Assembly: GCA_027596075.1 (NCBI GenBank)
Contig: JADGJC010000179.1
Span: 19,149-83,148 of the forward strand
Source: Rhizophlyctis rosea
Taxonomy: Eukaryota > Chytridiomycota > Chytridiomycetes > Rhizophlyctidales > Rhizophlyctidaceae
Reading direction: 5' to 3'
Length of the DNA stretch: 64,000 bases
Of this stretch, positions 57,375 through 63,749 are shown in pieces. Each line of letters begins with the position of its first letter. The first letter of the stretch is position 1. The translations under genes and the position numbers were made by a program. The notes beneath the pieces are model-generated. The model ran no database searches and was not told the DNA's origin. It saw nothing but the letters and a program-made list of their open reading frames with translations.

Positions 57375-58976
57375 CTACCCACATTCCAAAACCCCCATCT
57401 CCATCCCCCCAACCAAGAACCCCTCCTCCCTCTCACCCACCCCCACCCTCTCATCATCGCACTCCCTTCCCCCACCCCTCCCCAAAAGCCTCTCAATCTC
57501 CCTCTCATACGCCGCAACAACCCTCTCAACCTGCTTGTCCCTAAACCCCCTAACCTTCAACTTCTCAACCTCCCTCTGCGCCCCCTCCCACCGCCCTGTA
57601 AGATCTGCAATCCGCTCCATACACGCGGTGAGAATTGTTTCCATCTCTTTCTCACGCGCTAGAGCGATGGTTTTTATTTGCGAAGCCTCGGTTTTGTATT
57701 CGGAGAGGGTGGTGGAGGGGGAGTGGATTTGTGTTGTGTGGGTGGGTGAGAGGGGTGTGGTTTGGGCGGTGAGTGTGGATGGGTTTTGGGGTAGGGAGGT
57801 GTGGAGGGTTGTGATTTCACTTTCGAGGTTGGCGTTTTGAGTTTCGAGTGTGGCGAGGGCGGTGTGGGCTTGTTTTTGCTTGAGGTGGGATGTTGCGCCG
57901 TATTCGGCGTCGCAGAGTTTTGTTCCGAGGGTTCGAATCATTGTTTCGAGGTAGGTTATGTGTTCGTTGGAGGTGGCGAGGGAGGCGTCACATTGATGGG
58001 CTTCGGATTGGAGACAGGTTTGCAGGTATGTGTTTGTGGTGAGGAGGGTTTGGATGGTGGACGTCAAGTCGCTTCGTTCCGTTTCCCATTCGCGACGGGC
58101 GTTGTCGAATCGAAGCCATGACTGCCGTTCTTGGTCGCCCGCCTCTCTGTCCAACCGTTCCCTCGCCTCTCTATCCTTGACTTCACGCTCAAGTTTCACC
58201 AGAAGGGCTTGATACTCTGCCGTCAATTGTTGTTTCTCCTTCCGAGTCTTCACCAACTCCCGTTCAACCTTCTCTAACTGCTTCGCCCGATGTGCCGTCT
58301 CGCTCTTGGCGCGCTCCAACCTAGCCTCGAGTTCGGCAATCCTCGCAAGGTGCGTTTCCCGTTCACATGCATAGGAAGTAGCCGACTCGCCCATATCCTG
58401 AATAGCATTGTACGCTTCCCGCAGTTTCTCAAGCACAGTGGCACTCTCGCCCCTCTCAACGCCCGGTTGCTTCTCCGTGTGACTCGTACTGATTTGCGAT
58501 CCCTGACTTTGCGCCGCCCACTCCTGCTCGTCAACAGTCCGTTTCAGCTCCTCCAGCTTTACTTCATGCTTGCGGCCTATGACATCATCCAATGGTTTCA
58601 CCATTATGCCAGGTAGTCGGGGCCATGCTGTGATTTCTGCAGCTTTGGCAGCTTTCGGTCGTGTCGGGGCCGGGAATGGAACTTGTGAGACTCGAGTAGA
58701 GATCGGACGTCTGGCAGGAGAGGCGCAATACGCGTAAGGAGGGGGAAGAGGATTATCGGCGGGCGGAAGCGACGGATTGTAGCCCCATTTTTGAGGATCG
58801 AGCCCATGATAGAAGTCACAATCTTCGTCCGTGTTGGGGCAACGGCCGGTTGCCCAGCCAGCGCACTGCCGGGTTTGCCAGGATTTCAGATCCGACTTCT
58901 TATGTGCCTTGTTGCAGTCCCCGGTGCAGGTGCCGTCTCTGCACCAACTGTATGCGAAACGCTGTCGTTGGGACAT
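57375..58976 (-). CDS. Tandem CCCH-type zinc-finger protein with long coiled coil, 533 aa
   Basis: Single exon from ATG 58976 (MSQRQRFAYSWCRDG). Two adjacent CCCH fingers: CRDGTCTGDCNKAH (C-x4-C-x3-C-x3-H) and CAGWATGRCPNTDEDCDFYH (C-x7-C-x6-C-x3-H), about residues 12-56, which suggest RNA binding. A Pro-rich stretch to about 115 is followed by coiled coil over about 130-500 (LAELEARLERAKSETAHRA, KVERELVKTRKEKQQLTAEY), interrupted by a Thr-rich segment. The frame is open to ATG 59234, but those 86 extra residues are UTR-like. No orthologue recognised. It lies 290 bases downstream of the Fanzor gene on the same strand. Confidence 0.8.
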   Translation of the reverse strand: MSQRQRFAYSWCRDGTCTGDCNKAHKKSDLKSWQTRQCAGWATGRCPNTDEDCDFYHGLDPQKWGYNPSLPPADNPLPPPYAYCASPARRPISTRVSQVPFPAPTRPKAAKAAEITAWPRLPGIMVKPLDDVIGRKHEVKLEELKRTVDEQEWAAQSQGSQISTSHTEKQPGVERGESATVLEKLREAYNAIQDMGESATSYACERETHLARIAELEARLERAKSETAHRAKQLEKVERELVKTRKEKQQLTAEYQALLVKLEREVKDREARERLDREAGDQERQSWLRFDNARREWETERSDLTSTIQTLLTTNTYLQTCLQSEAHQCDASLATSNEHITYLETMIRTLGTKLCDAEYGATSHLKQKQAHTALATLETQNANLESEITTLHTSLPQNPSTLTAQTTPLSPTHTTQIHSPSTTLSEYKTEASQIKTIALAREKEMETILTACMERIADLTGRWEGAQREVEKLKVRGFRDKQVERVVAAYEREIERLLGRGGGRECDDERVGVGEREEGFLVGGMEMGVLECG

Positions 58977-59266
58977 TTCGAAGAGGGATGGAGTTGAGAT
59001 CAGCGTTGAAAGTGGATAAGATATGCAGGGTGTGAGGTGCGTGATAATTATGGTGGTAAGGAATTTGATGGAAAGACAAGTCAGTTTCTCCTCCCAAAGC
59101 TGCCACGAAGTGAGCATGACCACTGGTGGGGTATAGTAGTATTCGGCCAACATTGACTGTCGTTTAGTACAAATCAAGCCGGCTAAACCAACAGCGGCTG
59201 GAACCACCCAGCACAACCATGAGGGACGCGTCATGCCCCGGAAACAGCTACACTAGAAACTAGAAA
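58977..59266 (-). other. Fanzor 3' flank, candidate omega-RNA region
   Basis: In characterised Fanzor loci the guide (omega) RNA is transcribed from the 3' end of the nuclease gene and its flank. Here the minus-strand flank contains a GCTGG...CCAGC hairpin at 59212-59197, close to a GCCGGC-type inverted sequence. That a guide RNA is made here is inference. Confidence 0.3.
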
Positions 59267-61476
59267 CTAAACATCTACACCCCTGCAAAACAACAAAGGA
59301 CGCCCATATCCCAATAGCAGGGACCGGATAATCTTGATCATGTTGCAGGTGCTCAGCAAGTCTCGGTTCCAGAATCGGTATGTCCATTCGGGTTGTTCAT
59401 GACAATCGGGGTTGGCACAACCTGAGCAAAAGTTGTTGACGATGGGAGCTTGTAGTGATCAACGTGCAAAACGCCCTATCAACTTACCCAACAATCCGTG
59501 GACATCCTCTTGGTGACCCTCCTTCCTCCTCCACGGCCTTGAGCTTGGCCGCTTCCACAACTTCCCTTCGATCTTCTCCTCACACAGAGGACAGTAAGAA
59601 GACGTGCGAAACTCGTCAATCAGGAAACAAGGTATCCCGTTTCGGCGGAACAAGGTCCTCCATCCTTTTGTTTTGCTGGAAGTTTGGAACTTCGCCGTCC
59701 TCCCCGCATCACTCCAATCTCCCATCACGACCACAATGTTCTTCCCATAACGCTTCTTCATGTTGGCAAGCAACTTCGTCTCCGTGCGTTGAGTGTTGCG
59801 ATATGAGTTGAACGTCATCCTGCGGTGAATCTCGCGGTCGTAGAAATGTTGTCTCTGGGCTTCCGTTGCCGCCACGGTTGCCAGGTACCTGCAGTAACCC
59901 TGCAGGTCCATCGTTTTGTGCGTCGGGATGTTGGACTCTAACTTATCGATCCCACCCTGTTGCTTCAACCTTTCCCTCTTCTTCCTGAACTCCCTGCTGC
60001 CCGTCTCCACCGCCCTTTGATTGGAAGTGTAACGGAAGGTAAACTCCGTCAACGTGTCCTGGAAGTAGATCAGATCCCGCTTGTTCGGATCCCCTACCAC
60101 GACGTTCTCCGCCAATTGAAGTCGATCTATCTTATTCTCCACGTACTGTTCCCGTACTTCAGCCTGAAGTGTTGCTTTCGACTTTCGCCCCGCCTTCTGA
60201 CCCCTCTTGGCATCAGGGTGGCTGATACAGACCGTTAAGGAATGACCGTCTGTGCATACCGTCCCGTCAAATCTCATCCCGGCCCGAGGTTGGAACGCCT
60301 TCTTCTCCAACCGAAAAACACGACCCCACAGTTCGTCCTTCATGTCTTCCTGATACCCTTCAGCGTCTTTCCTTTTCAACCCCAAGACGTGTCTGTATAA
60401 GATCATGGTGTCAATTTGGACGTGAGATTGGACGAGGGTGGTTCGCAAAGGAAGAGCGGTGAACTGAGGAAATCCATGGTACTCGTAACGACGGGAGAGC
60501 CGACAGTAGGACGGGAGGAAGTAGATGGGATCAGAGACGACGAGGTATGCCAAGGGGTCCGACGATGGAAGGATGGGGAGGATATCGAAAATCTCGTCGA
60601 AGAGGTTGCGTTCGATGGGTGTTAAGCTCACCCATTCAGCGTTGGTGGGTTTAGCCTCCAATAAGAAAAAGCGTTTCAACCACCTGACGCGAGCGAAGAA
60701 CTGTTTCAACTCTTCTTTCCGTCCCGAAAGCTCCTTCTTTTTCGACTTCACCCCTGTATCAGAGCAGGGTTAGCTTGTTCACCAGCGTCTCAAAGAGGAC
60801 CAAACTTACCTATCCGGAGGTTGATGAAACGGAGCAACATCTGCATGTAGTGTTCCTGGACATTTGTTTTGACGTTGGCGAAAATGCTTTTGGCGAGGTA
60901 GTTGATGGGTTGTTGATCATGGTCCATTTTCATGGGTTGTAATTGACGGAGAGTCAGATAAGGTTGGAGGAACGGTGCGATCTCGTTTTTGATTGCCAGC
61001 TTGTCTCCAGTCCTGGGTTTCCAAATAGAACCCTTGTTCAGCATGTAGAGAATACCTTCAACATGGCATTCCGTGAGACTCGGGTAATCGGTAGTCGATA
61101 GGAACCAGAATTTGATGAATTCGGTGGTATATCTGGCGAGTCGATGTGGTTTGGAAATATAGTCCAACAGCCTTGCCTTGTAAAGAGCTGATGAAGGATG
61201 GTCGGTACGGAGGTAGGTTTTGAGTCGCGTTTTGTTGCAAGACCGCCGGGGTGGATCAAGCCTCCGTTGGTGTTTTCTGGTGCTCCGTAGTTGTTTGGCA
61301 TGGGTAGGTTGAGTTGTCGGTGGTGCTGATGTGGACGTCTCTTGTGGTGGTGTGGTTGGGGCAGATGTCTGTTGACTGGAAGAGCCCACTATCACATCGT
61401 CCTTAGCAGAAAGTTTTGGTTTGAAATAATCAGTTATTTTATGACTTTGAGTGTCAGGAGGCCTTTTGCGTTTCAT
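59267..61476 (-). CDS. Fanzor (eukaryotic TnpB-like RNA-guided endonuclease), 695 aa
   Basis: Exons (minus): 61476-60810, 60753-59488, 59421-59267; 696 codons, phases consistent, no internal stop. The N-terminus has a basic KRKRPP nuclear-localisation motif, KITDYFKP (residues 13-20, PIP-box-like) and a Thr/Pro-rich linker. The nuclease half has RuvC-I VVVGDPNKRDLIYF (Asp444), VVVMGDWSDAG at the usual RuvC-II region (568, no Glu), then FLIDEFRTSSYCPLC (Glu603 a candidate for the displaced catalytic Glu known in Fanzors; zinc Cys610, 613, 646, 651), and RuvC-III FWNRDLLSTCN (Asp665). The middle segments (YCRLSRRYEYHGFPQ, GMRFDGTVCTDGHSLT) are typical of Fanzor. All catalytic acids are present, so it may be active. 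Spizellomyces punctatus carries a characterised Fanzor. Confidence 0.93.
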
Positions 61477-61525
61477 GGCTGACCACCAGATGTGTGGTGG
61501 GAAGGGAAGAAGGGAAACCCAACGT

Positions 61526-61532
61526 CTTTATA
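61526..61532 (-). promoter_or_regulatory. TATA box candidate of the Fanzor gene
   Basis: Minus-strand TATAAAG lies 50 bases upstream of ATG 61476, in the palindrome CTTTATAAAG. A perfect hairpin CCGAACT-TGG-AGTTCGG lies further upstream at 61638-61654. Confidence 0.45.
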
Positions 61533-61889
61533 AAGAAATCTGAGTTGTGGATGTAATCAAACACACGTTGGTCACAAGTGATCGTTTCAATGATCTTTTC
61601 CTTTCACCTGGCTGGAATTGGTTTGACTCGGCTGAAACCGAACTTGGAGTTCGGACACTCTCTTTTGGCTGCGCACTATGTTCAGTTTGGTGTTGACCCA
61701 TAGCACGCTGACGTAACGCGACTGCGCAAACAAGCCACACCTGAGACACACTCAGGCTAATACCGGTGTGGAGTGCTATTACCTGATGCACACTGATGCA
61801 TACTGGAGCTATGGAGCCCCTACTGGAAGCAACCCGGTAGCAATACTAAAGCGAAGCACATAATGGCCTGCAACAAGAATACACTTACA

Positions 61890-62459
61890 CTTGCTGCTTG
61901 GGGGTCCACCCGTCCGGATAGGCGCTGGTGTAACTTACGGTGTCGCAAGACTCGTAAGCATTGCATCGCGCGGGTCCTTTCCTTGCACTGAATTATGCAC
62001 CTGTATGATGTCCCTCACTCCCTCAACAAGCGCTTTCGCAGCTTTCTCCGCATGCTTCACTTCTGCCTCTTCCCTCAACAATCTTACATCTGATCGAGAC
62101 TTTGTGGCTGCTCAAGCCGTTCTGTCTAAGTTGTTGTTTTTGACCGTCAAGTAATCCGCATGGTAGACTGCCCAAGCAAACCGCGTCCTCTGGATGAAAA
62201 TATGCACATAGCGCTCCATATCTCTGCAGAAAATGACCATTTGCGTATAAATGGCACCTCCTCCATCCATCACTTTTACGATCCAACGCTCTGCACGTGA
62301 TGAATTCCCTGGGGCTCCGAACTTGCCATGTGATGAGCCCATGTTCTTGGAGATGTTGCACATAACGGAATATTGAATTGTGACTGTCTGGCACCTCTCA
62401 AGTAGTGAAGGCTCATGGGCTGCAAGTATACTGTTGTATATCCTCCCAACTGTGTCCAT
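61890..62459 (-). CDS. Hypothetical spliced gene with an in-frame TGA, unknown function
   Basis: ATG 62459 opens MDTVGRIYNSILAAHEPSLL and runs through RFAWAVYHADYLTVKN to TGA 62114-62112. The same frame continues beyond it as RSDVRLLREEAEVKHAEKAA to a GTAAGT donor at 61938. A 45-base intron (weak GTCAAA donor to an ACAAAG acceptor) would remove the TGA and keep phase; otherwise it is a nonsense codon. Further exons would lie to the left. No domain is recognised; the C-terminal part is helical and charged. Confidence 0.35.
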
Positions 62460-63749
62460 TGGTCTTTAGTTGTCTGCGAAACGCGCGCAATTTCATATCA
62501 CTGACACTCAGCTCGTTCAAGCCATCCTCCATTCACAATGCTAATGAAAGCAATCCCGACTTTGTGAGACTTGATGCACACGCTTCCGTGCTTATTCTGA
62601 AGACATATGTTTACGCATTGGCATGAAATCCAAAAGACAAAAAGGTCCCTCAAACACCAAGCATTCCTGTGTCTGCAGTTTCGTCGCTGCACAGTGGTTG
62701 CAGCAATTTTAGGCCCACCCATGGCCTCTAAATTCGGCGTCAGAAAACAAACAACAAAGACCCGCAGCATCATACGAGGTTAAAGCCATGCTGGAGGCGC
62801 TTCTGTGGCGACGCAGTACTGTGCAGATTCCAATACCAAATGACGATCTAGACTTCGAAAGTTTGAACTCTCGATGGCAATGTGCTGCGGTAACGATCCA
62901 CCTCACGAACAAGACCCGACGCATAGCGGACGGACCAATTCAAGGATGATGATAATGAGCTTTTACATGGACCCCACAGACTGCAGTTCCTCGAACCCCC
63001 CACTTATCGCTGATAGGTGGGGTGTTGTGATCAACCACATTGGTAATGATCAGAACACCCTAACAAAACGCTGCTTGTCGTTGCCGAATGAAGTACGATC
63101 AATGAGCTTCGATTTAACGAGATCTTTCGTGCCGCTCTTCATTACTGCCCAACGCCAGGGGCCACCATCGTCACTATCGACACCAGAAAAGTCCGCTTAC
63201 GGCACAGAAGCGAAGCGCAGCAACGCCTTGCTTTGCCATCGTAACAACTTCTGGGGACTTCGAACATCAGAGGAAACATCCTACTAAGCTCCATCTTGAA
63301 AAGCTGAAATATTGATTGTTTCTCACCATTGTCCACGACGCACACTGGGCACAGCAGGGCTCCAAAAGATAGCTCTCGTGCACCTTACCGAGGTGCCCGA
63401 CATCGGTGGCAAGAGAGTGAAGAGGGGGTTCCTGATTGAAGGCTTGAGATGTGTCATGAAAGGCTAATTGGAAGTCCTATCAAAATGCGAAGATTGCGTC
63501 CTGGGGCATAATTCACTTCTTAGTTGCGTGTGAGATGTCCAAGTCCCATTATGTATTTGACCGCTAAAAGCGACGTGAGGTCATGTGCGGCGGGAGCTCA
63601 CAACTCCCATCCTAGCGTGGGGTGAGCTCATCGTCAGGACTCTCTGACCATTCAACACATATGTGAGTACGAGAGAAATCAAGCCTATTCAAGATCACTT
63701 CAAGCTGCAGACACCACAACTCTGCAAAGAAATTTATGATAATTATACT
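62460..63749. other. Intergenic stretch without a supported gene
   Basis: Open frames occur on both strands but overlap and lack motifs or splice structure. No RNA gene seen. Confidence 0.5.

Follow-up and report, generated by a model that had tools for sequence, protein, structure and literature searches.

Does the soil chytrid Rhizophlyctis rosea (order Rhizophlyctidales) carry a complete RNA-guided Fanzor nuclease at this locus, and what has become of the guide RNA and the element ends that would go with it? The stretch analyzed here, called the window below, comprises 64,000 nucleotides (G000:C89:19149-83148) of an assembly of 44.1 Mb in 634 contigs, and its right end is the end of the contig. 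A sequence-only reading of the window had proposed an intact Fanzor gene of three exons, which lie on the minus strand. Fanzors are relatives of the CRISPR nucleases and are likewise guided by RNA. We read this gene as an intact Fanzor1 of the clade of SpuFz1, the Fanzor1 of Spizellomyces punctatus and the first Fanzor to be studied, with its own candidate omegaRNA, and give this a probability of about 0.8; cleavage and expression of the RNA are predicted. A second intact copy on contig C152, a conserved block 3' of the gene and an N-terminal motif, all three absent from the earlier reading, are described in addition.

Gene structure and catalytic residues

Joining of exons 61476-60810, 60753-59488 and 59421-59267 (with the stop codon) yields a protein of 695 amino acids without internal stop, exactly as had been proposed. 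The individual parts of the gene are as follows.

60810..61476, minus strand: exon 1, with the ATG at 61476, which is common with the C152 copy; N-terminal tail and start of the WED/REC region
61420..61476, minus strand: residues 1-19, basic KRKRPP patch and KITDYF resembling a PCNA-interacting protein (PIP) box; 13/19 identical to the C152 copy
60754..60809, minus strand: intron 1, 56 nt, GT-AG, phase 1; 66 nt at the matching position of the C152 copy
59488..60753, minus strand: exon 2, REC/WED, most of RuvC, zinc cysteines C610 and C613
60089..60091, minus strand: codon of RuvC-I Asp444, corresponding to SpuFz1 D383
59612..59614, minus strand: codon of RuvC-II Glu603, corresponding to SpuFz1 E541
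59422..59487, minus strand: intron 2, 66 nt, GT-AG, between the two zinc-Cys pairs; the public model P0001 reads into it
59267..59421, minus strand: exon 3, C646, C651, Asp665 in FWNRDLL, stop TAG
59360..59362, minus strand: codon of RuvC-III Asp665, corresponding to SpuFz1 D606

In a search of the PDB, SpuFz1 (SPPG_07727, PDB 8GKH, 9CEU) matched residues 66-693 with an E value of 2.1e-203, which argues against a chance match, and about 52% of the aligned residues (324/627) are identical. The Fanzor1 of Parasitella parasitica (PpFz1, PDB 9CF0) followed with E 4.5e-46, and the sole further entry up to E 1 is unrelated (0.89). The SpuFz1 active-site residues D383, N385, E541 and D606 align with D444, N446, E603 and D665, and the four cysteines of the zinc finger in the TNB/NUC domain (C610, C613, C646, C651) align with those of SpuFz1; the main contacts to the target-adjacent motif (TAM) are likewise shared. 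Asp444, Glu603, the four cysteines and Asp665 in FWNRDLL were thus found at the places given by the sequence-only reading, as was the last intron, which separates C610/C613 from C646/C651. Glu603, which that reading had called displaced, is not displaced, as it aligns with the catalytic Glu541 of SpuFz1. The grouping of Asp444, Glu603 and Asp665 follows from alignment to the metal-binding residues of SpuFz1 (PMC10432273, excerpted text) and not from a model of the spliced protein.

Seven of the eight database matches carry the Pfam family PF26935. The score against PF07282 is 13.7 bits at a cut-off of 26.3; as SpuFz1 itself gives no match to this model up to E 0.1, PF07282 is no test of the SpuFz1 clade. 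In a fold comparison, the top seven matches of the low-confidence AlphaFold model of the public product P0001 were SpuFz, PpFz and GtFz. This model was calculated from 8 sequences and a product without exon 3, and served as a fold check only. Alignment and fold agree with the Fanzor identity assigned earlier: judged by its sequence, the gene is a Fanzor1 of the SpuFz1 clade, which is of modest novelty since Fanzors are expected in chytrids. A search of an open-licence library found no paper joining Fanzor with Rhizophlyctis. PpFz1 shares the Fanzor1 fold, with the strongest homology in the C-terminal RuvC/TNB half, but is much more distant and has its own cyclophilin-binding FRI insertion (PMC11423790, excerpted text). 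The same RuvC domain and CCCC zinc finger are found in TnpB of IS200/IS605 and IS607 elements, whose guide RNA comes from the right end of the element (PMC10432273, PMC10711439, both as excerpts).

Splicing of both introns at the given sites is inferred from the sequence. An alternative intron 2 of 39 nt, resulting in 704 amino acids, was dropped after comparison with the paralogue and SpuFz1; in favour of 66 nt are the C152 intron at this place, which has the same length, and the alignment of SpuFz1 across the join without insertion. Metagenomic relatives of the protein (P0002, P0003, P0004) show 81-87% identity. At the position of intron 2, the gene models of P0002 and P0003 read through the insert and that of P0004 ends just after it; from these models the introns look ancestral to this clade. 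The two introns had been taken earlier as a sign of long residence in the genome. They do not date the insertion in the window, because the C152 paralogue has introns at the same positions.

The public product of the gene, HDV00_003153 (P0001, 509 amino acids), begins at residue 145, matches through residue 645 and continues with 8 residues of intron 2 up to a stop. As it runs into intron 2 it lacks exon 3, and with it two zinc cysteines and the third catalytic residue, Asp665. Omission of the first 144 residues and of exon 3 hides the complete nuclease from annotation-based surveys. The R. rosea protein thus offers, besides a corrected gene model, a diverged homologue for structural comparison.

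Copies in the genome and selection

By protein search at least three loci were found in the assembly, namely the window gene on C89, the intact copy on C152 and a fragment on C21; only the best candidates are scored by this search, so that copy counts are lower bounds. The C152 copy encodes 709 amino acids; its two introns, each of 66 nt, match those of the window gene in position. The fragment (G000:C21, locus 4812-3883) covers residues 444-567 and passes directly into a redoxin-like frame. With SpuFz1 as query, only weak places on C391 and C443 were added. The latter (C443:107695-107814) matches 40 residues of the SpuFz1 C-terminus with 50% identity (E 0.013), and an RNA covariance model did not find the 3' block there.

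The proteins of the window and of C152 are identical in 525 of 690 aligned residues. Calculation after Nei and Gojobori gave a synonymous divergence (dS) of 1.43, which is rough because synonymous sites are near saturation, a nonsynonymous divergence (dN) of 0.158 and a dN/dS of 0.111 (bootstrap range 0.078-0.145, 300 resamplings). By part, dN/dS amounts to 0.37 for residues 1-75, 0.07 for residues 76-440, 0.11 for residues 441-695 and 0.23 for exon 3 alone. The overall value of 0.11 argues for purifying selection on the protein. Apart from the splice sites, the introns of the two copies look unrelated by inspection, and their leaders are no more similar than shuffled sequences (112 of 200 reach the observed score). 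By this comparison the two copies separated long ago, and each has kept an open and conserved reading frame. A tree from 359 ungapped columns does not join them as a supported pair; supports within the clade are 61, 42 and 31 and do not fix the order of the copies.

These values also bear on the question whether the window gene is a recently dead relic, intact by chance, no longer expressed and deprived of its left end. The window copy shows no left inverted repeat, and the clade is represented by at least three loci only, one of them a fragment. Yet frame and splice sites are intact in two copies that are near synonymous saturation, with a dN/dS of 0.11 and a conserved 3' block, and we therefore regard such a relic as quite improbable; the evidence for selection covers the branches and not the last short interval.

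The 3' block and the predicted guide

Directly behind the stop codon, window and C152 agree in 26 of 51 aligned bases, then in 71 of 80 within a block, and then in 20 of 57. The block and the adjoining sequence are placed as follows.

59132..59214, minus strand: candidate omegaRNA scaffold, 83 nt, ending in TATA; conserved at C152, with a partial model match beside the C21 fragment
59117..59131, minus strand: predicted guide, 15 nt of variable sequence directly after the block, placed also by analogy to the SpuFz1 layout (PMC10432273, excerpted text)

The block shares 86% DNA identity with its C152 counterpart (E 7.7e-17), and the DNA search of the assembly found it nowhere besides the window and C152. 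About 0.5 kb further on from the C21 fragment and on the same strand lies a shortened piece of 52 nt with both block ends kept, whose covariance-model score is weak when taken alone (E 0.95 over 121,550 bases). Exact occurrences of the 5' core of this piece in the assembly are restricted to C21 and C89, C152 being lost through a gap of one base; the pattern itself was set up once the C21 match was known. Besides C21 and C89, places with two mismatches to the core pattern are present on C458 and C622, as compared to one for the control. The C21 piece escaped the DNA search, and diverged ghosts may have escaped it too. Rfam gave no match up to E 1 for positions 58000-62500. An exact 19-mer match of the block in IMG/VR was discarded as chance, the 5,057 nt of that entry containing no Fanzor (best tblastn E 0.25); a protein search of IMG/VR yielded no relative.

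For SpuFz1, the omegaRNA is made from the same place behind the gene (PMC10432273, excerpted text), and the conserved RNA-like block directly behind the R. rosea gene is a point of likeness to it. From its conservation, its position and the type of its end, the block is a probable omegaRNA scaffold followed by the predicted guide. At both C89 and C152 the predicted guide is preceded by TATA; at C21, where the block end is not placeable to the base, ACTATA is present. SpuFz1 needs a CATA TAM, and any change of a TAM base abolished its cleavage, so that TATA in place of CATA would protect the donor locus.

According to the mechanism that we propose, the 695-residue protein would bind, by its WED, RuvC and zinc regions, a scaffold of about 83 nt transcribed from just behind the stop codon, as the conservation of the block suggests. 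The RNA would continue into the 15-nt flank, which would serve as the guide. By analogy to SpuFz1, double-stranded DNA with a CATA-like TAM beside a match to the guide would be cut on both strands by the D444/E603/D665 RuvC site, while the donor locus, with TATA at the place of the TAM, would be spared.

Several observations weigh against this reading. Of 48 contacts, 16 differ from SpuFz1, including Y345 (R406) and R415 (E477). The structure model has a mean predicted local distance difference test score (pLDDT) of 50.8, and exon 3 is absent from the modelled product. Two hairpins are predicted for the block, and its folding is not clearly better than that of shuffled sequences (z -1.28 for the window, -0.96 for C152); among 20 consensus pairs from the two sequences, one shows a two-sided change. 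No exact site of CATA plus guide exists in the genome. With up to three mismatches the window guide gives 16 matches and the C152 guide 12, each including its own locus, compared to 13 for the control pattern in either case. As this is no enrichment over the control, no present target was found.

The folding result would also fit a block that is only a terminal inverted repeat or a 3' processing signal and gives rise to no guide RNA, and transposition, too, would conserve a right end. On the other hand, the same place makes the omegaRNA in SpuFz1, and transposition alone does not explain the block, because conservation extends over 83 nt compared to a left end of 9 nt at C152 and none seen at the window copy. 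We thus consider a mere repeat or signal unlikely.

The predicted guide differs between the window and C152 copies, which is of relevance for a further explanation, namely that the nuclease was domesticated by the host and serves a function of the cell, its guide being fixed. Low copy number, introns, a left end that is not seen and purifying selection would all be in accordance with it. Different guides in the two intact copies and the lack of a genomic target above control speak against it, as does the finding that the copies are not supported closest relatives, which also fits an old family with separate mobile lineages. Domestication therefore appears to have a low probability.

Element ends, mobility and the N-terminal tail

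SPu-1 elements of S. punctatus have terminal inverted repeats of 30-33 bp, a single open reading frame and CA before the left repeat, and 42 Fz loci and 134 ghosts were reported for this species (PMC10432273, excerpted text). The R. rosea copies resemble SPu-1 in that the gene is followed by a conserved right end stopping at a variable flank. At C152, CA followed by TATATAGTA lies 84 nt before the ATG and forms a 9-nt inverted match to the right end of the same copy. This sequence appeared in 13 of 20,000 composition-preserving shuffles of the leader and was absent from 166,804 nt of other sequence; the 117 of 20,000 random windows in the prefix test include windows of the C152 locus itself, and the 9-nt match comes from a prefix test chosen after the alignment tests. 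At the window copy, the longest exact right-end prefix measures 4 nt in the 400 nt upstream and 6 nt in the 2.5 kb upstream; these 2.5 kb are all the upstream flank before the contig end, and a left end farther away is possible. Terminal inverted repeats of about 30 nt on both sides were found neither at the window copy nor at C152 (9 nt).

Further searches for the ends gave similar results. The right ends of both copies have no inverted copy on their own contigs within two mismatches, and on other contigs 1 and 3 further such places were present compared to 1 and 2 for the controls. Local alignments between right end and leader did not exceed shuffled sequences (82/200 for the window and 39/200 for C152 reach the score) and were set aside. 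Scans of the two loci for inverted repeats gave 55 and 93 pairs; in the 25 longest of each, no pair links leader and right end. Pfam analysis of ten neighbouring frames (six near the window gene, three near C152, one near C21) revealed LisH/CTLH near C152 and redoxin near C21 only, and no transposase.

In contrast to SPu-1 with its single uninterrupted reading frame, each intact R. rosea copy has two introns. The many copies and ghosts of SPu-1 are not seen either: at least two intact copies and one fragment make up three loci by protein search, the block is present at two loci by DNA and in part at C21, and no ghost was found by DNA search. The window copy also differs from SpuFz1 in having no visible left inverted repeat. 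An element that is still mobile, with ends too diverged to be seen and moved in trans by another transposase, could account for the C152 leader, where CA and TATATAGTA before the ATG reproduce the SPu-1 layout. No further copies or ghosts by DNA, no inverted right end on the own contigs and no such leader at the window make continued mobility rather unlikely. In our reading both copies derive from an SPu-1-like element whose left end eroded and was outlasted by gene and RNA. As the window copy has no recognisable left end, its gene and RNA are probably left over from an element that can no longer move, and selection would have maintained them at least up to the recent past. The earlier statement that nothing indicates decay thus stands for the gene, with its dN/dS of 0.11, but not for the element, which shows no left inverted repeat within 2.5 kb. 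By these comparisons the R. rosea gene adds to the SpuFz1 clade a member that has introns, unusually few copies, apparently eroded ends and a conserved N-terminal motif.

This motif lies in a tail about 60 residues longer than that of SpuFz1. Residues 1-75 evolve fast; within them, 13 of 19 positions are identical between the copies in residues 1-19, compared to 18 of 56 in residues 20-75 (Fisher p 0.007, with the split at residue 19 chosen after the alignment was seen). Both copies have KRKRPP and KITDYF or KITDFF near the N-terminus, and KRKRPP looks like a nuclear localisation signal. KITD(Y/F)F resembles a PIP box; the canonical first Gln is missing and a Gln is present one place too early in both copies. 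A word of this kind occurred in 113 of 20,000 shuffled versions of the protein. The consensus is Qxx[I/L/M]xxF[F/Y], and precedents are the POGO transposase, a PCNA interactor with a PIP box, and LINE-1 ORF2p, whose canonical PIP box is needed for transposition (PMC5371812, excerpted text). A replication-coupled Fanzor is conceivable, in which PCNA would recruit the nuclease to the replication fork and a cut empty site could be repaired from the sister carrying the element. The misplaced Gln, the absence of the motif from SpuFz1, its presence in two sequences only and a tail for which searches found no relatives speak against this coupling, and we regard it as fairly improbable. No paper joining Fanzor with PCNA was found in an open-licence library, and the N-terminal motif is a lead.

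What Fanzors do for the cell or the element is described as unknown in the literature (PMC10432273, excerpted text). In S. punctatus, 42 Fz loci and 134 ghosts make removal hard. In R. rosea two intact copies were found, each with a candidate omegaRNA and a readable guide, so that role, target and the need for mobility should be testable by removal of two genes.

Two observations concern neighbouring and related genes. The 3' block lies inside an open frame of 625 amino acids (57378-59252, on the strand of the gene); from position 58975 or so onwards this frame is rich in Cys and His (MSQRQRFAYSWC...) without a Pfam match, and this part probably belongs to the next host gene. Eight further places in the genome lie above the PF07282 cut-off (C21:107214, C566:9640, C270:8512, C1:444614, C225:47180, C438:5960, C391:8559 and C224:202295). 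The closest PDB match of the frame at C21:107214 is the mimivirus TnpB-like protein L79, and Fanzor2-like genes seem to be present in the R. rosea genome as well.
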